A stretch of DNA of 64,000 nt. Origin: Psychrobacter glacincola. Its GTDB lineage: Bacteria; Pseudomonadota; Gammaproteobacteria; Pseudomonadales; Moraxellaceae. Where the stretch lies: contig LIQB01000004.1 of the NCBI GenBank assembly GCA_001411745.2, positions 62,001 through 126,000 on the forward strand, read 5' to 3'. Each line of letters starts with the position of its first letter. Positions within the stretch are counted from its first letter, which is position 1. A model generated the notes under the pieces. That model saw only the letters and a program-made list of their open reading frames with translations. It made no database searches and was not told where the DNA came from. Position numbers and translations under genes: made by a program. Shown piece by piece: positions 2,501 through 26,340 of the stretch.

Positions 2501-2606
2501 AGCATACGACCTATCCTTTAAACACTTAGCGTAATAAGCGATTTTAACGCAGCAAGCTATTCATTCCCTTATCTACCACCCTATTTATAACCCCTAGGAG
2601 TTTCTT

Positions 2607-3182
2607 GTGGCAAGTTTTTCTACTAATGAATTTAAAGCTGGTCTAAAAGTCATGCTCGATGGCAACCCTTGTGCCATTCTTGAAAACGAGTTTGTCAAAC
2701 CAGGTAAAGGTCAAGCCTTTAACCGTGTTAAATTGCGCAACCTTCGTAGTGGTAAAGTATTGGAACAAACCTTTAAATCAGGCGATAGCTTAGAAGCTGC
2801 TGATGTCATGGACACTGAAATGAACTATCTATATAACGATGGTGAGTTTTGGCATTTCATGCACCCTGAAAGTTTTGAGCAGATTCAAGCGGACAAAACA
2901 GCGATGGGCGATTCCATAAAGTGGCTAAAAGAAAACAGCAATGCACTATGTACCATCACTTTATTCAACGGTGCTCCTCTTTCAGTAACACCGCCTAACT
3001 TTGTTGAGTTGCAAATCACTGAAACAGATCCTGGTGTGCGTGGTGATACTTCAGGTGGTGGCGGCAAACCTGCCAAGTTAGAGACAGGTGCTGTCGTCCG
3101 TGTGCCATTATTTGTACAACAAGAAGAAATCGTACGTGTTGATACTCGCACAGGTGACTATCAAACTCGCGTTAGCCAATAG
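2607..3182 (+). CDS. efp: Translation elongation factor P
   Basis: EF-P binds ribosomes stalled at polyproline stretches and promotes peptide bond formation. The 191-residue length and three-domain layout are normal. The modified loop reads PGKGQAF with the lysine at position 34, so beta-lysylation by EpmA/EpmB is expected, and epmB is the divergent neighbour. The start is a GTG preceded by a good ribosome binding site (TAGGAG, 2595-2600). The C-terminal domain carries the conserved stretch [10 protein letters not shown] strong hairpin terminator follows. There are no nearby genes on the same strand, so it is probably transcribed alone. Confidence 0.98.
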
Positions 3183-3487
3183 TATGTAAAAGTCATAGCG
3201 CTCGACATAATAGGACTTATATAATAGAACTTAACAGTTAGCCTCTAGCTGTTATTCCACAAAAAAGCTGAACCACTGATAAAGCGGTTCAGCTTTTTTT
3301 ATTTATGAATATTTTTTTAATATTGTCTCTGTAGTTGATTTGATTAAAAAGTACTCCAAAGCAACCGAATAAAAATTCATATGGAGTATGTCAAGCAAGG
3401 TTAACGCTGTGGTTTTTTATAGTGGATGAACTGTCGCTATTGATGACAGCGATGATAAATAACCTTCTATACATTTTTACCAAACCA
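3183..3487. other. Intergenic gap, efp to histidine kinase gene
   Basis: This 305-bp stretch lies between convergent ends. It holds the efp terminator and otherwise AT-rich sequence without an open frame, repeat or RNA gene that I can recognise. Confidence 0.6.
3261..3301 (+). terminator. Rho-independent terminator of efp
   Basis: A perfect stem (AAAAAAGCTGAACC paired with GGTTCAGCTTTTTT) around a 12-base loop is followed by a T run. The flanking A and T runs could make it work in both directions. Confidence 0.9.
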
Positions 3488-5317
3488 CTACTCTGCTGAT
3501 GAGTGTTTCTGTATCAGCCAATATTGTACCAATGCATTCAACTGCTCTTGTTTAAAAGGCTTGGTACAATAATCTTGCATCCCAACTTTTAAATACTTTT
3601 CGCGCTCACCGTCCATTGCATTGGCGGTCAACGCAATAATAGGTGGTAATGATTGAGGATCATAAAGTTCATGCAATTTAATAGTGGCCTGTACACCATC
3701 TAAAATAGGCATGTGATGGTCCATTAAAATAACATCATAACGCTCAGGTGAGAGCGCAAAAATTTCAATAGCCTGCTGCCCATCAGTGACATGCGTGACC
3801 GTATGACCACTATTATTCAGGGCTTTTTTAGCGATAATGGCATTGACGGTATCGTCTTCAACCAACAATATATGACCAGCACGCTCATGGGTCGGCTCAA
3901 TCATCGTAAAGTCATTTGACTCTTGCCACATCTCATACTGGTTTTCATCAATAGTCGGTAGCGGTAATAAAACACTGAACGTAGTGCCCACACCCACTTC
4001 GCTATCCACATCGATATAACCGCCCATCAAATCAACCAAAGACTTACAAACCGAGAGTCCTAGACCTGTGCCACCATAAAGACGGTGGGTGAATTTATTT
4101 GCTTGGTCATAAGCATCAAATATTGCATCCAATGACTCAGCTTTGATGCCGACACCCGTATCTGTGACTTCAATGCATAAGGTCATGACTTCATGATAGA
4201 TGGTATTACTGATAGCTTCTTGAGCCGTTATTTTGCTGAGATCGCTTGCCGAAATGCCTTGAGCGCGATATTGGTCAGCGCTGTCATCGTCAAAACCATC
4301 ACAATGACAATTGGGTACATGTTTGACATCAATAGTGACTCGCCCGCCCTCACGAGTAAATTTAATCGCATTATTAACAAGGTTTGCTAAAATTTGTTTG
4401 AGGCGTACCGGATCGCCTTGTACATAGGGCGATAATGACTCGGTATAATGGTAGTCTAAAATGAGCCCTCGCTGACGTGCTTTAACAGCAAAGAGGCTGA
4501 CCACCTCATTACATAATGCAGATAAGTTAACAGGAATAGAATCAATGGTCATTTTCCCAGATTCTACTTTCGATAAATCTAAAATCCCGTTAATGATCGC
4601 CATCAAATGCTCATTGGAAACTTTGATATTGTCCACGTATTCTTGTTGCTCACTGCTAAGTTTGGTCTCACCAAGCATCTCCACCATACCAATAATACCA
4701 TTCATCGGTGTGCGGATTTCATGACTCATATTGGCCAAAAAGTCTGATTTCATCTCATTGGCATGTTTGGCATCACGCTGCTTATCCTGTAGCTGCAAGG
4801 CATCTGCCGCCATCATCGCAAATTGAGCCAACACCTTTGCTTTTTGCTCATCAAAGTCATGATTGGGCTTCATATCCATCACACACAGCGAGCCCAGACG
4901 ATAGCTTTTATTATCCTCATGCAAGATAATTGGCGCACCAGCATAGAACTGTAGGTACGGCGATTCTGTCACTAGGGGATTGTGGCTAAAACGACTGTCT
5001 TTGGTTAAGTCCGGTACTACAAAGACGTCGTTAGAAAGCACGGTATAATTGCAAATAGCCACTTCACGTGTCGTTCGGCAAACACCGCCCAGTCCTTGGA
5101 CAGATTTTAGATACTGTGTTTCTTCATCCATGAAAGTAATGGTCACAACTGGTACATCAAAAAATAGCTTTGCCAGATCAATTAGACGCTTAAATGCAGG
5201 CTCATCATTGTCGTTGAGCACCTGATACTTCCTAAGCTTATTGATGCGTTCTACTTCATCTGCCGCTACTGGGTAGCTGTGTTTAGGTGCGTTCAATATA
5301 GACAAGATAGACTCCAT
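3488..5317 (-). CDS. GAF-domain hybrid sensor histidine kinase
   Basis: A soluble hybrid kinase of 609 residues without membrane segments. In order: a GAF sensor domain (about 25-180), a dimerisation/phosphoacceptor domain with H199 in MSHEIRTPMNG, an ATPase domain with N box NLVNNAIKF (313-320), G1 box DTGVGI (386-391) and G2 box GGTGLGLS (415-422), and a receiver domain with phosphoacceptor D533 in ILMDHHMP and conserved K587. Between the N and G1 boxes is an insert of about 45 residues (333-378) with a CHC motif, longer than usual. The receiver is terminal and no output domain follows, so a separate partner is expected but not seen. The gene starts 9 bp after the tcdA stop and is probably cotranscribed with it. 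The input signal is unknown. Confidence 0.93.
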   Translation of the reverse strand: MESILSILNAPKHSYPVAADEVERINKLRKYQVLNDNDEPAFKRLIDLAKLFFDVPVVTITFMDEETQYLKSVQGLGGVCRTTREVAICNYTVLSNDVFVVPDLTKDSRFSHNPLVTESPYLQFYAGAPIILHEDNKSYRLGSLCVMDMKPNHDFDEQKAKVLAQFAMMAADALQLQDKQRDAKHANEMKSDFLANMSHEIRTPMNGIIGMVEMLGETKLSSEQQEYVDNIKVSNEHLMAIINGILDLSKVESGKMTIDSIPVNLSALCNEVVSLFAVKARQRGLILDYHYTESLSPYVQGDPVRLKQILANLVNNAIKFTREGGRVTIDVKHVPNCHCDGFDDDSADQYRAQGISASDLSKITAQEAISNTIYHEVMTLCIEVTDTGVGIKAESLDAIFDAYDQANKFTHRLYGGTGLGLSVCKSLVDLMGGYIDVDSEVGVGTTFSVLLPLPTIDENQYEMWQESNDFTMIEPTHERAGHILLVEDDTVNAIIAKKALNNSGHTVTHVTDGQQAIEIFALSPERYDVILMDHHMPILDGVQATIKLHELYDPQSLPPIIALTANAMDGEREKYLKVGMQDYCTKPFKQEQLNALVQYWLIQKHSSAE

Positions 5318-5326
5318 TAAATAAGA

Positions 5327-6208
5327 TCAGACGCTCGGCTTGATGCCCGCCTGTTTTATTAATAATTGTAATGCTTCACTCACCATAATCATCGCAACCA
5401 CCGATGTGACCACTACTGCTGAGCCGTAACCACCACACTGCAAACCGCCTGTCTGACAACTCTTATCTACACGTGGTGGCTCTGTAGAGTAGACACATTT
5501 GATACCGAACTTTTCTTTTAGTGTACTATTAATGCCTTTTTCGTGGCGCAACTTATTGCGTAATTTGGCAAGTAAAGGATCTTGATAACTGTCACGCAAG
5601 TCGCTCACCCTAATCTGACTAGGGTCTATCTTGCCACCTGCGCCGCCTGCACAAACCAATTTTAATTTATTAAAACGACAATGTAGCGCGATGGCAAGCT
5701 TGGCATTCATATCATCTACGCAGTCCAAAATGACCATAGGTCTGCCTTGAGCGATAGCGGCTTTTGCTTCATCGCGACTTGGCAATAAAGTGGCGACGTT
5801 TTCTACAGTTAAAAAATCATCGATCAAGTTTAGCGTTACTTTGGGATTAATTTCACGAATACGGGTGGCCATCGCTGCAATTTTACTCTCACCAAAGGTG
5901 CTGTCTAGTGCAGGCAACTGCCGATTGACATTGGACGCAACCAATACGTCCAAATCGATCAACGTAATAGTGCCCACTGCCGTTCTTGCCAAAGCCTCAG
6001 CTGCCCAAGAACCAACACCTCCAACGCCAATAACGTATACATGCGCATCGGCAAAAGTAGTGACAGCTGTCGTACCATAAAGAGTGCGCGTACCTTGAAA
6101 ACGGCGATCATATTGCACATTGTCTTCGCTAAGCTTTTCTGTCTTTGTAACGTCTTCGGTGCCAATGGACTCTGTCATTGTTTGCTCAAATGGTTGTATT
6201 TCACTCAT
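5327..6208 (-). CDS. tcdA: tRNA threonylcarbamoyladenosine dehydratase TcdA
   Basis: An E1-like (ThiF/MoeB) adenylating enzyme. TcdA uses ATP to convert t6A at tRNA position 37 to the cyclic form ct6A. The nucleotide-binding motif GVGGVGSWAAEALAR starts at residue 61, with the typical LIDLDVLVASNVNRQL downstream. The family pattern CQTGGLQCGGYGS lies near the C-terminus, followed by a membrane-associating hydrophobic tail. About 30 acidic residues at the N-terminus are not part of the core fold. It sits just upstream of the hybrid kinase gene. tsaB, a subunit of the enzyme that makes the t6A substrate, is elsewhere in this window. Confidence 0.92.
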   Translation of the reverse strand: MSEIQPFEQTMTESIGTEDVTKTEKLSEDNVQYDRRFQGTRTLYGTTAVTTFADAHVYVIGVGGVGSWAAEALARTAVGTITLIDLDVLVASNVNRQLPALDSTFGESKIAAMATRIREINPKVTLNLIDDFLTVENVATLLPSRDEAKAAIAQGRPMVILDCVDDMNAKLAIALHCRFNKLKLVCAGGAGGKIDPSQIRVSDLRDSYQDPLLAKLRNKLRHEKGINSTLKEKFGIKCVYSTEPPRVDKSCQTGGLQCGGYGSAVVVTSVVAMIMVSEALQLLIKQAGIKPSV

Positions 6209-6343
6209 AACAGATTAAATGCTCTTTTAAATTATTTTGGTGGCGCTTATATTACGTCAATTTCTTGATTCACGGCTATTTCATTCACTATCATATCAAT
6301 GGCTAGCAATACAATAAACCGTCAGTGACTAAAATATGTGGCA

Positions 6344-7333
6344 CTACGATAACGGATAATCCCATTTTGTTTGCAAAGCACTGCAACTGTTGTGCCACAA
6401 TTGCTTAGCAAGACTGGCGGGTGGTACATTGAGCAACTCACTCAAGCTTAGCAACACCCATGGCAAGTTGGCAGGTACATTTCTATTATGTACGGCTGTA
6501 CTCCTCCGTGCACTGTCTGAGTTTTGATTTGGCACTGATGAATCATGGTCAGATATTTGGCACATGATAGGCGTCATATCAGGGCAATCCGTTTCTATCA
6601 CCAAACATTCAATGCCATAGCTATCAACCGCTGCTTGAATGGCGCGGCGCAGTTTCTTAGCATTGGGATTAGTGATTTGACCAGTAACCCCAAGCTTAAA
6701 TCCTAACTTAACAAATGCTTTGGCCTCTTGCGTCCCACCACTAAAACTATGCGCGATACCGCCAAGTTTGTGCGCATCGTAGTCATGCGCTTTTAGTATG
6801 GCCAACGCTTCTGCATGTGCTTTACGAATATGTAGCATCACTGGCAGCTGATGAGTCACTGCCATGTCCAATTGTGCCTTAAAAAATCGTACTTGTTTGG
6901 CAAATATGTCAGGCGCTTTCATCGCCTCAGTAAAGGTGTCTAAACCAATCTCGCCGATTGCTAATGGGCGTTTATCAGCAATCCTTTTTGCCATGGCGAT
7001 TAAATGATCTTCAGTATGCTGTTTGATATAAAAAGGATGCAAACCGACCGCAATATGGCTACTAAAATTTGACACTTTTCGTCTATCGACATTGGCTATC
7101 GTAGGTGATGATAGCTTATTTAATAGGCGCTCAGTCTCATACATCCGCTCAAAATACTGATATAGATAACCCACTAATACCAGATGGCGTACTCCCTGAT
7201 TGTGAGCCTGCTGCGTCAGTATTTCTCTATCATCATCAAATATTGGGGCATCAAAATGAGTATGCGTGTCAATGAGAGGATAAATAGTAGGTAAGGGCTG
7301 TTTGATCATCTTAGGTGAAGCGATAGGGGTCAT
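6344..7333 (-). CDS. TatD family metal-dependent hydrolase
   Basis: A TIM-barrel amidohydrolase of the TatD DNase family. Expected metal ligands are visible: HTHFD near the N-terminus, the Glu of AIGEIGLD, the His of MLHIRKAH, a His in IAHSFSGG and the Asp of VIETDCPDM. At 329 residues it is longer than E. coli TatD or YjjV because of insertions near residues 60-85 and 270-300. Family members act as 3'-5' exonucleases or in DNA repair; the exact substrate here is not predictable. It lies upstream of tcdA on the same strand across a 135-bp gap. Confidence 0.88.
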   Translation of the reverse strand: MTPIASPKMIKQPLPTIYPLIDTHTHFDAPIFDDDREILTQQAHNQGVRHLVLVGYLYQYFERMYETERLLNKLSSPTIANVDRRKVSNFSSHIAVGLHPFYIKQHTEDHLIAMAKRIADKRPLAIGEIGLDTFTEAMKAPDIFAKQVRFFKAQLDMAVTHQLPVMLHIRKAHAEALAILKAHDYDAHKLGGIAHSFSGGTQEAKAFVKLGFKLGVTGQITNPNAKKLRRAIQAAVDSYGIECLVIETDCPDMTPIMCQISDHDSSVPNQNSDSARRSTAVHNRNVPANLPWVLLSLSELLNVPPASLAKQLWHNSCSALQTKWDYPLS

Positions 7334-7520
7334 TGATAGACTCCAAAATTAATAGTTTTCAGCGAGGCGTTCCGTGATTTGTCATTCAATAGACATTATT
7401 TGTCATTTTGTAGCAACAACCACGTCAATGAACACTTTAGAATGATGACTTTATTTAAAATGATTTCTATAGTTAAAAAATGCCAATCAACAAAAGAGCT
7501 TTTGATAAGTAAAGAGACCT

Positions 7521-7679
7521 TCAACACGCCCTATTAGTATTATCATGATTGGCGTTTGCATTGTGCTCATCTAACGCTCTGGTATCAGCTTGTCGACTGC
7601 TACGCCGAGGAATCACCAATAAGGCGGTGGCAGCGACTGCTAATAAAAACCACTTTTTAGTATTTGTATGACTTGTCAT
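7521..7679 (-). CDS. Small hypothetical single-pass membrane protein
   Basis: I favour the ATG at 7679 (52 residues) over an in-frame TTG at 7748 (75 residues), because a purine-rich GGTAGGGGTGGAAGC precedes the ATG. The protein starts MTSHTNTKKWFLLA and has one hydrophobic segment (about residues 10-23), then a charged tail rich in Arg, Asp and Asn. I recognise no family. It lies between the TatD-type gene and gspD on the same strand. Its small size makes it a moderate-confidence call. Confidence 0.45.
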   Translation of the reverse strand: MTSHTNTKKWFLLAVAATALLVIPRRSSRQADTRALDEHNANANHDNTNRAC

Positions 7680-7871
7680 TGCTTCCACCCCTACCTTTAT
7701 ATCATCATCTGCAATATTTATCAGCAAGTGTTCATACTTACTACTCAATTACTCATTAGTATACTGCGATATAAAAACTGCTATGTTTATCTGTGTTATG
7801 AATACGCAAGCTAATGTACGGCGTAGTTTATTTATTACACCGTGTCTCTACATGCTATAAGAATAGGAGGC

Positions 7872-19417: not shown

Positions 19418-22324
19418 ATGGCACACGAGTATATTAAGGTTCGCGGCGCACGCACTCATAATCTAAAAAATATCGATTTAGACATTCCACGAGATAAGTT
19501 TGTGGTCATTACGGGTTTATCAGGCTCTGGTAAATCGTCATTGGCATTCGATACGCTGTATGCCGAAGGGCAACGTCGTTATGTCGAGAGTCTGTCGGCG
19601 TATGCGCGTCAGTTCCTCTCGCAAATGGAGAAGCCTGACGTCGATAGTATCGAGGGTCTATCCCCTGCGATTGCTATCGAGCAGAAATCAACCAACCATA
19701 ACCCGCGCTCTACGGTCGGTACGATTACCGAAATTTATGACTATCTGCGCCTGCTTTATGCGCGTATTGGTACGCCGTTTTGCCCTGAGCATGGCGAGCC
19801 AATGGTGGCTCAGTCTGTCACCGAGATGGTCGATCAAGTCATGGCATTGCCAGATGACACCAAAATCATGATCTTAGCTCCAGTAATTCGTGAGCGTAAA
19901 GGCGAGCATACAGTTCTGCTTGAGCAATTAATTGGGCAAGGTTTCGTGCGCGTACGTGTCGATGGTGATGTCTACGATACCGATGAATTACCAACACTTG
20001 ATAAGAAGAAAAAGCATACCATTGAAGTCGTTGTTGATCGCTTTAAAGTCCGTGATGATTTGGGTAACCGTGTTGCAGAGAGCTTAGAGACAGCTTTACG
20101 TTTGGGTCAAGGTTTGGTCACGCTACACTTTATGGATGGCAATCCAAAAGGAGGCGGCGATGACAACCAAGTCATGTCAGCCAAGCATTCTTGCCCTGTG
20201 TGTGATCGCGCTGTCTCTGAGCTTGAGCCACGCATGTTCAGTTTTAACAATCCATACGGTGCGTGCCCAAGCTGTGACGGTCTTGGTAAACGTCAATACT
20301 TCGCAGCTGAAAAACTGATTACCCATCATGAAAAATCGCTCAATCAAGGGGCGATTAATGGTTGGGATAAACGTCATGCCTACTACTTTGGTTTGCTCTC
20401 TACCGTCTGCAATCACTTCAAAATTGATATGGATGCACCGTGGCAAAATCTGACCAAAGAGCAGCAAAACCTAATCATGCAGGGCTCTGGTAAAGAAAAG
20501 CTGACCTTTAACTTTACCGATGAGCGCGGTCGCAAGACTAATAAAATCGTACCATTTGAAGGGGTGCTTCCTTATTTAGAGCGTCGTTATGCCAAGACGC
20601 AAAGTAACCTTGTCCGTGATGAGCTGGCTAAATATCTAGCAGATACCACTTGTAACGTCTGTGATGGCGCACGTCTGAATGAAATCTCACGTAACGTGCG
20701 TGTCGATGACCAAACCATCGCTCAAATCGTGAAACTCTCCATCGGTGACGCGGCTGACTATTATAAAACGCTAAAAATTGGCGGTCATAAAGGTGAAGTT
20801 GCAGAAAAAATCTTTAAAGAGATTAATGAGCGTCTGAACTTTCTTGTCAGTGTTGGACTTGATTATCTCTCCCTTGCACGTTCTGCTGAAACGCTATCGG
20901 GCGGTGAAGCACAGCGTATTCGTCTGGCTAGCCAAATTGGCGCAGGACTAATGGGCGTGATGTATGTACTTGATGAGCCATCGATTGGTCTACATCAGCG
21001 CGACAACGACCGTCTGCTAAAAACTCTAACGCGCTTGCGTGATTTGGGTAATACCGTACTGGTCGTTGAGCATGATGAAGATGCCATTCGCCAAGCAGAT
21101 CATGTGATTGATATCGGTATTGGTGCAGGTGTACATGGCGGTCATATTATCGCTCAGGGCACGGTCGATGACATCATGGCAAACAAAGAATCGCTGACTG
21201 GACAATATATGTCTGGTAAGAAAAGAATCGAGATTCCAGCCATTCGTCATAAAGCCAAAACGATCGATATGGAAGTCAAAGGTAAGGCAAAAGCTCAAAA
21301 AGCCCCGATGACGATTGAGCTAAAAGGTGCCTCAGGTAATAACTTACATGATGTAGATTTGACCATTCCCATTGGTATTATGACTTGTGTGACTGGTGTC
21401 TCAGGTTCGGGCAAATCAACTTTGATCAACCGTACCCTTATGCCATTGGCAGCGACTCAGTTAAACAATGCCTCAACGCTCATCGCGGATAAGCATGACA
21501 GCATCAATGGTCTTGAGCATTTGGATAAAATGGTCGATATCGATCAAAGCCCGATTGGTCGTACGCCGCGCTCAAACCCAGCGACGTATACCGGTGTCTT
21601 TACGCCGGTACGTGAGATGTTTGCACAAACGCAAGAAGCACGCGCGCGCGGTTATAAGCCTGGTCGCTTTAGCTTCAACGTAAAAGGCGGACGCTGTGAG
21701 ATGTGTCAAGGTGACGGTCTTATCAAGGTTGAAATGCATTTCTTACCTGATATGTATGTGCCATGTGATACCTGCGAAGGTAAGCGCTATAACCGTGAGA
21801 CCTTAGAGATTCACTATAAAGGTAAAAATATTGCCGATGTCCTAGATATGACCGTAGAAGATGCCACTGAATTCTTCTCAGCCATTCCAGCGATTTATCG
21901 TCGTCTGCAAGCCTTGATGGATGTGGGTCTTAGCTATATTCGCTTGGGTCAGTCTGCACCGACATTATCTGGTGGTGAAGCGCAACGTGTTAAATTAGCG
22001 CGTGAGCTGGCCAAACGCGATACGGGACAAACGCTCTATATCTTGGATGAGCCAACCACTGGTTTGCATTTTCATGATATCGATAAGCTGCTGCATATCT
22101 TGCACGCTCTACGAGATAAAGGTAACACTATCGTCGTCATCGAGCACAATCTTGACGTCATCAAAACGGCGGATTGGGTGATTGATCTAGGTCCTGAAGG
22201 TGGTAAAGGTGGCGGACTAATTATCGCAGAAGGTACACCTGAACAAGTAGCTGAAGTCACAGAATCCTACACGGGTATATTCTTAAAGCCGATGCTAGAG
22301 CAAGGCATGAAAGAAGTCAGCTAA
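19418..22324 (+). CDS. uvrA: Excinuclease ABC subunit A
   Basis: The damage-recognition ATPase of nucleotide excision repair; it loads UvrB on lesions. Two ABC ATPase modules are visible, with Walker A motifs [14 protein letters not shown] near residue 32 and [10 protein letters not shown] near 660, signature motifs [14 protein letters not shown] and [14 protein letters not shown], and Walker B regions [14 protein letters not shown] and [14 protein letters not shown]. Zinc modules show CPVCDRAV...CPSCDGLG and CEMCQGDG...CDTCEGKR. The 968-residue length is slightly above the E. coli protein. The ATG start has the family N-terminus and a purine-rich ribosome binding site. It is followed by a terminator and likely stands alone. 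Confidence 0.99.
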
Positions 22325-22346
22325 TATAAGTTAATGAATAATTGAT

Positions 22347-22378
22347 AAAAGGCCACTCTTTATAGGGTGGCCTTTTTT
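22347..22378 (+). terminator. Rho-independent terminator of uvrA
   Basis: AAAAGGCCACTC pairs with the GGGTGGCCTTTTTT arm, ending in a six-base T run 23 bp after the uvrA stop. Confidence 0.9.
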
Positions 22379-22413
22379 ATTGGCTAATATAAGGCTTTGT
22401 CCAATCTGCACAC

Positions 22414-22445
22414 TATATATCTTGATTAAGGTATCAAGATATATA
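22414..22445. repeat. 12-bp perfect inverted repeat
   Basis: TATATATCTTGA and its exact complement flank an 8-base spacer. No T run follows, so this is not an ordinary terminator; it could be an operator or an RNA stem upstream of the small lipoprotein gene. Confidence 0.85.
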
Positions 22446-22643
22446 TAGCTCGTTGCGTTACCTTTCTTAATCTTTATTAAAGATACTTAAACGTTGATTG
22501 TATTAATATTTAAATAGTTAGATATGATGCGTAGACGCATACGATATAGAAATATCTGGTTAAAAGCCATATAGCAAGTCATAGCACGTACACACTGACA
22601 CGGCTAACCCCTACATAATCCCTAAAACTCTCAAGGAATTCTT

Positions 22644-22910
22644 ATGAAAAAATTACTGTTCATTGTCTTAGCATCTACTGTTGGCATTAGTGCCTGTGCG
22701 TCAAACGGCACATCAAATGGCTCAAACGATCGCAACCATCAAAGACCTGCGATGTCAGCAGACATGAAACAAGCCATGAATGATTGTGCTCAACGAGTTG
22801 GCGTAAAAATTAATAAAGACAGTCGTCCAAGTAAAAGCGATATGAAGAAAATAAATTCATGCATGAGTGCAAAAGGGTTTGAGAAGCCTGCAGGCCAAGG
22901 TCGTCACTAA
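22644..22910 (+). CDS. Small hypothetical lipoprotein
   Basis: An 88-residue exported protein. MKKLLFIVLASTVGISAC is a clear lipoprotein signal with C18 as the lipidated residue. The mature part has a Ser/Asn/Gly-rich start, then a short helical domain with two further cysteines (near residues 48 and 72) that could form a disulfide: MKQAMNDCAQRVGVKI and MKKINSCMSAKGF. I do not recognise a named family. A good ribosome binding site (AAGGAATTCTT) precedes the ATG, and a terminator follows closely, so it is a free-standing gene. Confidence 0.8.
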   Translation: MKKLLFIVLASTVGISACASNGTSNGSNDRNHQRPAMSADMKQAMNDCAQRVGVKINKDSRPSKSDMKKINSCMSAKGFEKPAGQGRH

Positions 22911-22940
22911 TAACTGGTATTTGTTAGATGATCATTGATG

Positions 22941-22972
22941 AAAGGTCACTCTTTAGGGAGTGGCCTTTTTTT
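22941..22972 (+). terminator. Rho-independent terminator of the small lipoprotein gene
   Basis: AAAGGTCACTC...GAGTGGCCTTTTTTT forms a stem with one G-T pair and a seven-base T run. The sequence closely resembles the uvrA terminator upstream. Confidence 0.85.
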
Positions 22973-23035
22973 GGTGTATAGAATCCAAAGTTGCTGTTGC
23001 GGGCCGCCCCTTGTCTTAAATGCCATCTAGCAAAT

Positions 23036-23665
23036 TTAACCCTTCGCTATCAACCATGTGCCAGCCAATCCCATAAATGAAGACCCTACTCGGTTAAATT
23101 TCTGACGCGCTTTAGGGTTTTTTAGACGTTTTTGCGCGTAACTCGCCATAAAGGCATACATCATCATGGCAACAATGGCGCAGCCAAAAATCACCAGACA
23201 TAGAATCGTAATGTCTACCCTTGTCAGACTGGTTACTGGAAAAAAGCTAGGTAACAAGCTAATATAGAATAAAATAACTTTTGGATTGCTAATGGACACC
23301 AAAAAGCCTGACATCAGACTTTTCAAACCCTCGCTTTTACTCTTTAACGCTATATCTCCAGTGATAATTTCACTCGGCTCCGTCGTCCACATCTTGTATG
23401 CCAAGTAAAATAAATAACCTGCACCCACAAACTTAACGACAGTAAACAGTGTATTGAAATTACTTGCTAACGCGCTCAGTCCATAAGCTGAAAACACCAT
23501 ATAAATAGTGTCGCCTGCGGCAAGTCCAATAATTAAAGGCAGCGCCGCCCAAGAACCTTGCGTCATGGCTTTGGCAATCGTGGCAAACACACCAGGACCC
23601 GGCGTCATGATAAATATGAATACAGCAATGATGAAAGTAAATAGCTGGATGGTGGTGATGGTCAT
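23036..23665 (-). CDS. LysE/RhtB family amino acid exporter
   Basis: A 209-residue inner-membrane exporter. The N-terminal motif FIMTPGPGVFATIAKAMTQG is the LysE/RhtB signature, followed by LIIGLAAGDTIYMVFSAYGL. About six hydrophobic segments are visible, and GFLVSISNPKVILFYISLLP in the middle is also typical. Family members export basic amino acids, threonine, homoserine or related compounds; the substrate cannot be read from sequence. No LysG- or ArgP-type regulator is adjacent. It lies convergent with the small lipoprotein gene, with one hairpin terminator between them. Confidence 0.92.
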   Translation of the reverse strand: MTITTIQLFTFIIAVFIFIMTPGPGVFATIAKAMTQGSWAALPLIIGLAAGDTIYMVFSAYGLSALASNFNTLFTVVKFVGAGYLFYLAYKMWTTEPSEIITGDIALKSKSEGLKSLMSGFLVSISNPKVILFYISLLPSFFPVTSLTRVDITILCLVIFGCAIVAMMMYAFMASYAQKRLKNPKARQKFNRVGSSFMGLAGTWLIAKG

Positions 23666-23798
23666 GACAGTCCTTTATGTACTTATTGATTCTTAAGTAT
23701 AATTGATTGAATAAACATATTTCTATGTTTAGTATGATTGTTTTAGAAAATTTATAGGCTCAAAGACGTAAGCTAATAGAAATTGTTGAAGGAGTGAT

Positions 23799-23830
23799 AA
23801 AAGGCTACTCTTTAGGGAGCGGGCTTTTTT
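23799..23830 (+). repeat. Orphan degenerate terminator-like element
   Basis: AAAAGGCTACTCTTTAGGGA followed by GCGGGCTTTTTT resembles the terminators at 22347 and 22941, but the stem has several mismatches and no plus-strand gene ends here. It looks like a decayed copy of the same module. Confidence 0.6.
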
Positions 23831-23898
23831 GTTGTCTAAAAACTGTTTACTGTAGAGAGGCTACTTTTAGTTCAAATTTTTTTTGTAAAGTGAATTTT

Positions 23899-23926
23899 TT
23901 GAAGTAAACTAAAGTTAAATTATAGT
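23899..23926 (+). promoter_or_regulatory. Predicted promoter of the SieB-like/HEPN cassette
   Basis: TTGAAG (23899-23904) and TATAGT (23921-23926) are separated by 16 bp and lie 22 bp upstream of the first start codon. The DNA around them is extremely AT-rich. Confidence 0.5.
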
Positions 23927-23947
23927 AAAAACCTCAAAAGAGAATTC

Positions 23948-24478
23948 ATGGATTGGCTAACAGAAATAATAAAACAGCTACAGACTTCACGTGCGTTCGT
24001 TACAGCAGTGTTCATAGTATGCTTATCAGTACTACTAGGAAATGCCTTTGCACCTTCCTTCATTCCTGAGGTTCCAGATAACTGGAAACTCCCATTAATT
24101 GGAGGATTAATATTCTCTGGAACCTTATTAGCATTTATAATAATTCCATTTTTTTGGAGCTACTTTTCTAAAGTTTTAAACAGTAAAAGCCAAGAAATTA
24201 GATCTTTAAACTTATCTAGTAATGAACAAGGTTTCTTATACGTCATGGCTTTAATAATAGAAGATAGTCGAGAAGACTTTATAAACTTGAGTAATTTAAA
24301 TTATGATGCTATGGAAATCTCTAAGCTCGAAACTCAAGAAGTTGTATCAAATTTAGTAAATAAAGGACTTATCGAAACTAATCTTTTCGACTCTACTTTA
24401 GTGTCTTTTACTATTCCCGGAAGAAGCAAAGCTCTTGAAATTAAGAGTAGTATTACCCAAGCTCGTAGGCTACGCTGA
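23948..24478 (+). CDS. Two-helix membrane protein with SieB-like architecture
   Basis: A 176-residue protein with two membrane helices (about 15-32 and 48-72) and a cytoplasmic C-terminal part of about 100 residues. The C-terminal part begins LSSNEQGFLYVMAL and continues with VSNLVNKGLIETN and a short beta hairpin, a pattern like the winged-helix region of SieB superinfection-exclusion proteins (membrane pair, then a 'no second helix-turn' domain). The similarity is by layout and motif rhythm, not by a database match. AAGAG upstream gives a plausible ribosome binding site. Codon use is visibly AT-rich compared with neighbours, suggesting transfer. The HEPN-type gene follows after 45 bp, likely in one transcript. 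A phage-exclusion role is inference. Confidence 0.7.
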   Translation: MDWLTEIIKQLQTSRAFVTAVFIVCLSVLLGNAFAPSFIPEVPDNWKLPLIGGLIFSGTLLAFIIIPFFWSYFSKVLNSKSQEIRSLNLSSNEQGFLYVMALIIEDSREDFINLSNLNYDAMEISKLETQEVVSNLVNKGLIETNLFDSTLVSFTIPGRSKALEIKSSITQARRLR

Positions 24479-24523
24479 CACGGGAAACATAAAAATTTAA
24501 CATTTTAGAGTATTGTATAAATT

Positions 24524-25243
24524 ATGAAAAATTCGGCACTTGATAACTTACAAGTATTCAATTCAGCTAATACTGTTATTATTCCATACATAAAGAGGTG
24601 TGATTTAGAAAGTGGTATTACAGTCACAGCCAGTCCTTTAGAGCAATATACATTAGATTTTTTCAAAGCTGTCAGGAGTATCACTGATTGCATGGAACAA
24701 TTACACTTTTCTATTGAACTTTTATCTGGCTATAGAACTAGCACTTCCCCTGACTCAATGAATCGTCATGATCATATAGTTTTTGCTATAGAAAACTATT
24801 ACCTTCGAATAACTTCTGTTTATGATAGGTGCTTAAGGCTTATTAATATTCTCTATAACTTAGGACTACCTGAAAGAGACTGCAAAAATAGTACTATTGT
24901 CAAAAACATACACGTAAAAGGGTCAGATATAGAAACAAGCTTAAAGGCTCTGGATAAGTTTACAAATAGTTTTAGACAATTTAGAAACTCAGTTGCACAC
25001 AATGAAACATATAGCGAAGATGACAAATTACAAATTATTGCGTCATACTATTTTCTTGAAGCTAAAGGAGTAACTGACATTATCAAATTTAAGCATCTAT
25101 TTAAAACTGAAACAGATAAATATATAAAGGATAAAAAATCTGAATTTAATGCAGATCTTGTTGAACTTGAAAGCTTAATTATTGATTTTTTGAACGCTGT
25201 AAATACTAAATATCTAGGTATGAAAAGTAAATTCACATCATGA
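24524..25243 (+). CDS. HEPN-type protein, candidate RNase
   Basis: A soluble all-helical protein of 239 residues. FRQFRNSVAHNETY carries the HEPN motif R-x4-H at R154-H159, including the polar residue after R that is common in active HEPN RNases. Preceding helices (about 40-115 and 135-153) and the trailing one fit a four-helix HEPN bundle; the overall shape recalls Cthe_2314-like HEPN proteins, though I cannot confirm that family. HEPN RNases often act as toxins or as effectors of phage defence. No antitoxin of the MNT or MNT-like type is adjacent; the only partner is the SieB-like membrane protein 45 bp upstream. Base composition is AT-rich like its partner. Confidence 0.72.
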   Translation: MKNSALDNLQVFNSANTVIIPYIKRCDLESGITVTASPLEQYTLDFFKAVRSITDCMEQLHFSIELLSGYRTSTSPDSMNRHDHIVFAIENYYLRITSVYDRCLRLINILYNLGLPERDCKNSTIVKNIHVKGSDIETSLKALDKFTNSFRQFRNSVAHNETYSEDDKLQIIASYYFLEAKGVTDIIKFKHLFKTETDKYIKDKKSEFNADLVELESLIIDFLNAVNTKYLGMKSKFTS

Positions 25244-25342
25244 ATGCCATATTTAAGATTAGCAAAGCAAACTAAGACTAATTAGCATTACTCAGAACCG
25301 CTGCCGAGCATCCTTCGCCATCAACACTAATTAAGTTCAGCT

Positions 25343-25372
25343 CGTAGGTTGGATTGACGAAGGAAACCCAAC
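25343..25372 (+). repeat. REP element 1 (degenerate)
   Basis: CGTAGGTTGGATTGACGAAG followed by GAAACCCAAC is an imperfect palindrome of the same family as the other REPs around the transposase gene. Confidence 0.7.
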
Positions 25373-25397
25373 TGTCTCATATTCATCAAAACCAACT

Positions 25398-25430
25398 CGT
25401 TGGGTCTCATCCTTCGACACCAACCTACAA
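25398..25430 (-). repeat. REP element 2
   Basis: An inverted copy relative to element 1: CGTTGGGTCTCATCC then TTCGACACCAACCTACAA. Confidence 0.7.
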
Positions 25431-25455
25431 TCTAAACACAGAATTACCTACAATC

Positions 25456-25488
25456 CGTAGGTTGGGTGGAGCTTGCGACACCCAACAA
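25456..25488 (+). repeat. REP element 3
   Basis: CGTAGGTTGGGTGGAGC then TTGCGACACCCAACA, a stem of GTTGGGTG with CACCCAAC. This is the best-preserved upstream copy, 43 bp before the transposase start. Confidence 0.85.
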
Positions 25489-25531
25489 AATTAAGTAATA
25501 TCAGTTATTAGTTATAATTTGTAGATATAGC

Positions 25532-26026
25532 ATGCAGTATCGAAGGCACTATCAAAAAGGAGCAACCTACTTTTTCACTATCAATCTAGCTGATAGGTCT
25601 AGCGATTTGCTAGTCAAAGAAATTGCAACACTTAGACGCGCCTTCAAACTCGTTAAACAAAAACACCCCTTCTACATTGATGCCATTGTTATCTTACCAG
25701 ACCATTTGCATATGTTATGTACTATGCCAAATAATGATGCAGACTTCTCTAAACGAATAAAACTCATTAAATATTACTTTTCTTATAACATTGCCAAAAC
25801 AGAATCTATTTCGAGTAGTAGACTTAAAAAAAGCGAGCGTGGTATTTGGCAACGTCGATTTTGGGAGCATTGCATTCGCGATGAATCAGACTATCGAGCA
25901 CATATTGATTATATTCATATGAACCCTATTAAACATGAGTATGTTAAACAAGTTAAAGACTGGCAATATTCCTCATTTCATCGATTTGTGACGGATGGTT
26001 TGCTTCCTATCAATTGGGGCGGATGA
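25532..26026 (+). CDS. REP-associated tyrosine transposase (RAYT, TnpA-REP)
   Basis: A 164-residue Y1-type transposase of the IS200/IS605 superfamily that handles single-stranded DNA. The HUH motif is LPDHLHML with H58 and H60; the catalytic tyrosine is Y127 in DYIHMNPIKH. The N-terminal MQYRRHYQKGATYFFTIN is typical of RAYTs. Palindromic REP elements lie on both sides in opposite orientation, as expected for the sequences it recognises. The length is complete and no frameshift is visible, so it may be active. RAYTs are usually domesticated, single-copy genes that spread REPs rather than themselves. The neighbours upstream are the HEPN cassette and downstream a decayed gene, marking the area as accessory. 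Confidence 0.93.
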   Translation: MQYRRHYQKGATYFFTINLADRSSDLLVKEIATLRRAFKLVKQKHPFYIDAIVILPDHLHMLCTMPNNDADFSKRIKLIKYYFSYNIAKTESISSSRLKKSERGIWQRRFWEHCIRDESDYRAHIDYIHMNPIKHEYVKQVKDWQYSSFHRFVTDGLLPINWGG

Positions 26027-26049
26027 GGATATTCTTTTTTAAAGTAAAT

Positions 26050-26080
26050 GTTGGGTGTCGTAAACTCCACCCAACCTACA
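26050..26080 (-). repeat. REP element 4, downstream of the transposase
   Basis: GTTGGGTGTCG then TAAACTCCACCCAACCTAC, the near-exact reverse complement of element 3, 24 bp after the transposase stop. Confidence 0.85.
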
Positions 26081-26121
26081 AGTTAGACATTTTTCAGAGC
26101 TAAGATATAAAACCAGTTAAC

Positions 26122-26340
26122 CTAAACAAACTCCCTCTCAACATTCTTCACCCGTGCATCTAGCGTACGTTCTATCTTTTCCTCGATTTGACTGCATTGC
26201 GACTCGACCTCACGTTTAGATAGCCCAACGATCACAAATGTCCATTTACTGGCATCATGTCGATCACGCTCGCCACTTTCACAAACCCCAACGCTTAGCG
26301 TATTGCTAAATGAGTACAGCTTGCTACCCCTAACCCTCAA
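26122..26340 (-). pseudogene. N-terminally truncated DUF503-like gene
   Basis: A 72-codon frame whose N-terminal third seems missing. FSNTLSVGVCESGERDRHDA resembles the 'NVSVAEVG-xQD' core of DUF503 proteins, and the C-terminal part IEEKIERTLDARVKNVEREF fits a closing helix. The only upstream start is a TTG without a ribosome binding site, and the frame stops at TGA 18 bp further up. The DUF503 match is moderate. A second decayed copy of its last 21 codons lies at 27658, on the other side of the M48 peptidase gene. Confidence 0.5.

Follow-up and report, generated by a model that had tools for sequence, protein, structure and literature searches.

A Cthe_2314-like HEPN gene and a membrane-protein gene of SieB-like layout adjoin at a uvrA-linked exchange site of Psychrobacter glacincola and appear to travel separately

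The window, i.e. the whole stretch of 64,000 nucleotides of Psychrobacter glacincola DNA analysed here, contains two neighbouring genes on the forward strand. Gene 1 (23948-24478) encodes a putative membrane protein of 176 aa with two hydrophobic helices, a winged-helix-like C-terminal domain and a SieB-like layout. Gene 2 (24524-25243) follows after a gap of 45 bp and encodes a Cthe_2314-like HEPN protein of 239 aa, a predicted RNase, whose R-x4-H motif (RNSVAH, residues 154-159) is specified by the codons at 24983-25000 on the same strand. The ORFs and their spacing are as given in a preliminary description of this DNA, and the AT-richness that it attributed to the pair is likewise evident: the GC content is 0.335 in gene 1 and 0.303 in gene 2, compared to 0.421 in the window. 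The stretch from 23765 to 25338 (1574 bases) has a GC content of 0.316, a value as low as which is reached in 2 of 625 sliding windows of equal length. The "good promoter" proposed for the pair did not hold up. The sequence TTGAAG-16-TATAGT upstream of gene 1 (23899-23926, forward strand) matches a promoter in 9 of 12 positions, but such matches are not above chance (9 in the region versus 7.6 +/- 2.4 in shuffled sequence). The two genes may well share one transcript, considering their common direction, the short gap and their similar AT-richness.

Together, the genes make up an insert about 1.5-1.6 kb in length (23765-25338), because collinear similarity after the LysE gene ends at 23763-23764 in five relatives (L022, L023, L024, L026 and L027), and the element on the right-hand side matches other genomes from about 25339 onward. 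The latter (25339-26107, forward strand) comprises REP-like sequences and an IS200-like/RAYT-type transposase gene (ORF 25532-26026; PF01797, E 6.6e-7) and represents a separate, repeat-associated element. LysE and the IS200-like transposase domain were identified by Pfam scan; the names uvrA, DUF503, M48, ThrE and RAYT are presumptive. Three copies of a terminator-like repeat (22310-22387, 22903-22980 and 23762-23839) separate uvrA, a small lipoprotein gene, LysE and the insert from each other; over 78 nt the second copy is 60% and the third 78% identical to the first. Copies of this repeat lie nearby, and L022 has one at a distance of about 135 bases from LysE; the insert may thus start on either side of the third copy, which places its left edge between about 23765 and 23840. 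The repeats could constitute a recombination anchor for gene exchange. Short stretches resembling them recur in many genomes across the genus.

The region between uvrA and the DUF503/M48/ThrE-like genes (22325-26118) is an exchange site, the content of which varies widely among the genomes of the genus. No gene is present between LysE and the M48-like gene in G025 (L072), nor between the lipoprotein gene and DUF503 in G026 (L061); the latter is not a clean empty site, because no uvrA was seen ahead of it, where two other small genes are found instead. Three further genomes (G065, G069 and G095) possess the RAYT element at this site without the gene pair and beside other cargo, which in G095 includes a DUF5677 gene. 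A match was obtained for 68 genomes of the genus, and 25 loci were taken, i.e. G028 and 24 others. Left out of this count were the window's own genome, short or cut contigs (G058, G050, G095, G067, G093 and G086), three genomes taken as off-site (G055, G046 and G031, the first two of which show other neighbours), and 33 genomes that match by short repeat-like stretches only. A gene for a PDC-S49-like NTPase (seven loci), NACHT, AbiH or GmrSD is carried by 10 of the 24 other loci. AbiH, NACHT, GmrSD and one PDC-S49-like NTPase were found by HMM, although the Pfam KAP and AAA scores of this NTPase are below the cut-offs; the six further PDC-S49-like NTPases, one of which is split in two ORFs, were assigned by BLASTP to the HMM-found one. 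The other 14 loci have no gene assigned to a defence family, and the cargo scanned at L056, L059, L060, L066, L070 and L071 gave no defence match; the weak PADLOC matches that L071 has to E1-E2/PDC-S12 models are due to its SEC-C end, and L066 reaches the end of its contig. Cargo at the site also comprises a P63C protein, a NERD/SEC-C protein, a Sel1-repeat protein, small ORFs (membrane-bound as judged by eye) and unknown genes. Two proteins of unknown type, with 442 aa (L066) and 339 aa (L070), may be encoded by undescribed defence genes. It is the position in this site, together with defence-type genes in other genomes, that speaks for the defence role previously proposed for the pair.

Gene 2 can be assigned by sequence to the HEPN_Cthe2314 family. 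Residues 62-170 match Pfam PF18730 with an E-value of 1.5e-15 and 58.1 bits, compared to a curated cut-off of 27.1, which upholds the earlier HEPN assignment, and the RNSVAH motif is found at the residues reported before. When nine sequences, including a near-identical pair, are aligned, 10 columns are invariant, among them R154, N155, H159 and D101. In the part of PMC3710099 considered here, active HEPN domains are characterised by Rx4-6H with a polar residue after R and often an upstream acidic residue, a pattern that the invariant residues of gene 2 fit. Comparison with the Paraglaciecola copy (73% identical) yields a dN of 0.17 and a dS of 2.2, the latter near saturation, and points to purifying selection on gene 2. 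The AlphaFold model of the protein is all-helical, but poor (pLDDT 47.5), for which reason the fold search was restricted to gene 1. A profile of gene 2 relatives had no match at E <= 1 among solved structures, Abi_C and AbiJ models did not match gene 2, and PADLOC returned no significant match for either gene.

No match to gene 2 was found in phage and plasmid records or in viral contigs; among 369 genomes of the class the gene 2 profile recovered the window's own genome and one partial weak match, and PF18730 scored above its cut-off once in 166 class genomes, namely in the window's own, with one partial match below. More distant relatives (25-27% identity) are located at another chromosomal place in G020, G021, G060 and G069 (L003-L006), next to a gene that by eye we presume to be oxidoreductase-like. 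Three of these four relatives are barely above the PF18730 cut-off and one is below.

For gene 1, hydropathy reveals two membrane-type segments at residues 16-34 and 48-66, which recur at near-equal positions in all five aligned proteins and agree with the two membrane helices described previously. The structure model (pLDDT 69.5) displays a long second helix and, in the C-terminal half, a predicted winged-helix-like part with a pLDDT of about 80, which is consistent with the earlier description of such a part. The fold search gave mainly MarR-type winged helices at the top of its list, the best with an E-value of 0.007 and none with one below 0.001, and among solved structures there are two weak matches (E 0.11 and 0.16), the first of which is a regulator aligned to the winged-helix part. 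The proposed likeness to SieB is retained as far as the layout is concerned: by hydropathy, five gene 1 proteins and three SieB proteins have in common two hydrophobic helices followed by a C-terminal domain, and both groups are alike in the short N-terminus and in the length of that domain. Membership in the SieB family, in contrast, is not supported. PF14163 is absent from the Pfam scan of gene 1 at E <= 10 and has no match in the window's own genome, whereas it scores above the cut-off in 4 of 104 class genomes and in 2 of 14 control genomes. Shallow profiles were compared once, with three of the four SieB proteins from class genomes and without the L116 protein; this gave an E-value of 0.014 and a probability of 3% over 109 collinear columns. 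NCBIfam and PHROG contained no significant match to gene 1. The gene thus probably encodes a small inner-membrane protein of SieB-like layout, with the winged-helix-like domain predicted to lie in the cytoplasm.

The gene 1 family is apparently rare in the searched sequences. Besides G028 it was found in three plasmid records and in one viral contig (L017), which from our own reading of its ORFs we take to be P2-like; none was found in phage records. Searches with the gene 1 profile recovered, in 369 class genomes, the window's own genome and two partial matches that lie within open frames encoding 424 and 514 aa and are both taken as chance (one of them, L015, was inspected), and two partial weak matches in 345 genomes of the order to which the Paraglaciecola genome belongs. 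There was accordingly no convincing match in the 368 other class genomes or in this second order.

The two genes had been described as a plausible defence pair; our comparison speaks against a conserved two-gene system. Two genomes out of 105 in the genus carry the pair, namely the window's own (G000) and G028, where the copies are near-identical and both located at the uvrA site. Neither gene 1 nor a full-length gene 2 of high identity occurs in any other of the 105 genomes, so that a check of co-occurrence found the two genes together almost nowhere else. Moreover, an IS630-type element (DDE_3, HTH_Tnp_IS630) splits gene 1 in G028, where gene 2 is intact (99% identity) and gene 1 retains a 131-aa ORF that covers its second helix and C-terminal part. 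Outside the genus, the gene 2 profile matches in 4 of 196 genomes, all of them in the family of the Paraglaciecola genome (L010, L080, L081 and L082). The gene 1 profile, which in a positive control recovered the five known members without exception and the two pieces in G028, found nothing at E <= 1 around these four loci, and nothing at this threshold around the four distant relatives within the genus (L003-L006, L083). Conversely, the gene 1 loci L011, L012, L013 and L017 gave no match to the gene 2 profile. The whole Paraglaciecola assembly is without a gene 1 match, in a search that had no positive control in that genome. This distribution suggests that the two genes travel separately and do not constitute a fixed pair.

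Judged from neighbouring sequence features, the relatives of gene 2 outside the genus have an integron-like setting in four of four cases. The integron integrase of L080 is complete (TIGR02249, 382 bits, cut-off 265); on its other side the HEPN gene comes first and is directly followed by an attC-like site. The HEPN genes of L081 and L082 are flanked by attC-like sites on both sides, and that of L010 lies beside an integrase remnant (93 bits, below the cut-off) and is followed by a partial attC-like start. A strict attC scan yielded 2 hits in L080 (12.0 kb), 4 in L081 (12.0 kb), 13 in L082 (11.5 kb) and 3 in L011 (9.0 kb), where base-shuffled sequence gives a background of 0.56 per 10 kb and strand; the attC-like sites adjoining the HEPN genes were mostly recognised by eye. 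Around the window copy (23601-26200) the scan detected no attC-like site. The cassette preceding the HEPN gene in L081 encodes a small hydrophobic protein of 92 aa, which by profile is unrelated to gene 1. A gene 1 relative from Vibrio alfacsensis (L011) is a single gene directly after an attC-like site (5851-5976), with a partial site after it, and appears to be a lone cassette.

Two of these loci carry further genes. Behind the integrase of L080, the array at 2560-6333 consists of the HEPN gene, genes for two proteins without Pfam match, a gene for a DUF4062 protein and two small genes, which we assume to be BrnT/BrnA-like. On the V. alfacsensis plasmid (L011), a cassette gene at 4977-5837 has a weak PADLOC match to 2TM_IV (E 5e-4) and adjoins the gene 1 relative, with an attC-like site between them.

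Gene 1 may accompany HEPN proteins, in view of its neighbours at two loci. On Burkholderia ambifaria plasmid pBMC401 (L012), a gene 1 relative is preceded, at a distance of 18 bp, by an Abi_C/AbiJ-like gene and followed by a DUF5677 gene three genes further on, and in L017 one is situated two genes 3' of a protein with the motif R-N-K-W-I-A-H. The latter protein is without a Pfam HEPN match and by profile unrelated to gene 2, and no HEPN match was found among the scanned neighbours of the gene 1 relatives in V. alfacsensis (four proteins) and B. anthina (two proteins). HEPN-like company would thus be present at one or two of four gene 1 loci, a sample too small to decide.

The surroundings of these two relatives have features of their own. 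Positions 1633-12507 of L012 hold small genes arrayed on one strand, adjacent to a tyrosine recombinase; two genes of the array are present twice, and it carries a MazEF-like pair in addition to the Abi_C and DUF5677 genes already mentioned; the array resembles a cassette array, yet a scan for attC-like sites found none. In L017, a three-gene stretch (6061-7818) is composed of the genes for the R-N-K-W-I-A-H protein, a membrane-like protein and the gene 1 relative.

We consider it rather probable that the insert comprises two independently mobile accessory genes instead of a dedicated two-component system, and that gene 2 encodes a stand-alone Cthe_2314 HEPN endoribonuclease. The observations underlying this reading are the family and the conserved motif of gene 2, the separate occurrence of the two genes, the integron-like settings of the relatives and the variable site. 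Gene 2 would most likely act as an effector of abortive infection or dormancy. Two copies of the protein would dimerise, and their paired R154/N155/H159 sites would cut cellular RNA upon a phage-made or stress-made trigger, so that growth stops or the cell dies before phage is released. Gene 1 probably acts alone at the inner membrane, as an exclusion or regulatory protein, and may have come to adjoin gene 2 through gene exchange at the uvrA site; we infer that the two genes do not cooperate.

The arrangement of the two genes can be read in other ways. On the one hand, they might form a defence system of two components, with the membrane protein as a sensor of infection that releases the HEPN RNase. 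The 45-bp gap, the common strand and the shared composition agree with such an arrangement, as do the gene 1 relatives beside the Abi_C gene in pBMC401 and near the motif-bearing protein in L017, and the defence genes at the uvrA site in related genomes. We nevertheless regard it as unlikely, because the pair is confined to 2 of 105 genomes with near-identical copies at one locus, the HEPN gene is without a gene 1 relative nearby in four of four relatives outside the genus, and the scanned gene 1 neighbours in V. alfacsensis and B. anthina include no HEPN match. Table 1 of PMC3710099, in its entry for the Cthe_2314 family, likewise gives no operon partner. The split of gene 1 in G028 also speaks against cooperation, though the remaining ORF with its second helix and C-terminal part softens this point.

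On the other hand, gene 2 might be a dormancy or stress RNase that halts translation under stress by cutting RNA, and not an effector of phage defence. We rate this as improbable, if slightly less so than the sensing of infection by gene 1. It would accord with the integron-like settings of the gene 2 relatives and with a hypothesis of dormancy that PMC3710099, in the part considered here, states for another integron HEPN family; the NACHT, AbiH, GmrSD and PDC-S49-like genes at the uvrA site of other genomes point away from it, and so do anti-phage cassettes, which amount to about 10% of the integron cassettes discussed in the relevant part of PMC12409362. The upstream position of gene 1 and the short gap would also suit a toxin-antitoxin pair with gene 1 as the antitoxin of a HEPN toxin. 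Antitoxins are mostly soluble, and gene 1 has two hydrophobic membrane-type segments; furthermore, the HEPN gene is intact in G028 while gene 1 is broken, and gene 2 occurs elsewhere without gene 1 nearby. For these reasons we rejected the toxin-antitoxin reading, which we hold to be highly improbable.

Two independently mobile genes, the reading preferred here, can be compared with several known systems. HEPN effectors, integron-borne HEPN genes and defence exchange sites are already known kinds. Gene 2 resembles the Cthe_2314 family (PF18730; Anantharaman et al. 2013, PMC3710099) in its score above the curated cut-off and in the preserved Rx4-6H. Table 1 of that paper lists architectures and operons of the family as "None detected"; in contrast to this entry, the relatives of gene 2 have integron-like settings and the window copy lies in an exchange site. 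The integron cassette HEPN family represented by PDB 3jrt shares with gene 2 the HEPN domain with Rx4-6H and is carried in integrons, but it is treated as a separate family in the corresponding part of PMC3710099, and the gene 2 profile had no match to a solved structure at E <= 1. According to the part of PMC12409362 considered here (citing Darracq et al. 2025 and Kieffer et al. 2025), both chromosomal and mobile integrons include cassettes directed against phages. The likeness to these phage-resistance cassettes consists in small genes moved by integrons, some of them anti-phage; in contrast to them, no attC-like site was detected at the window copy, which is known here from sequence alone. 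As to AbiJ and Abi_C, an Abi_C protein adjoins the gene 1 relative in pBMC401, whereas gene 2 itself matches neither model. HEPN nuclease domains occur in 4 of 31 newly validated defence systems in the part of PMC13092281 considered here. In the open-access literature we found no description of Cthe_2314-type HEPN integron cassettes, of the gene 1 family or of the uvrA site.

A more far-reaching view, which we regard as speculative and about as improbable as the sensor role of gene 1, is that Cthe_2314-like HEPN proteins are unrecorded, integron-borne single-gene RNases of abortive infection. Gene 1 would then typify an undescribed mobile family of two-helix/winged-helix membrane proteins, which is located close to HEPN effectors on plasmids, on chromosomes and in a phage contig and is able to tune them from the membrane, and the window would display a recent union of both at a defence exchange site. 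If gene 2 indeed protects against phage, a HEPN family for which PMC3710099, in its Table 1, lists no operon partner would gain a function, a vehicle (integrons) and a home (the uvrA-linked exchange site). The uvrA site itself, where many relatives have differing genes of both known and unknown kind, is a ready place to seek undescribed defence genes in this genus.
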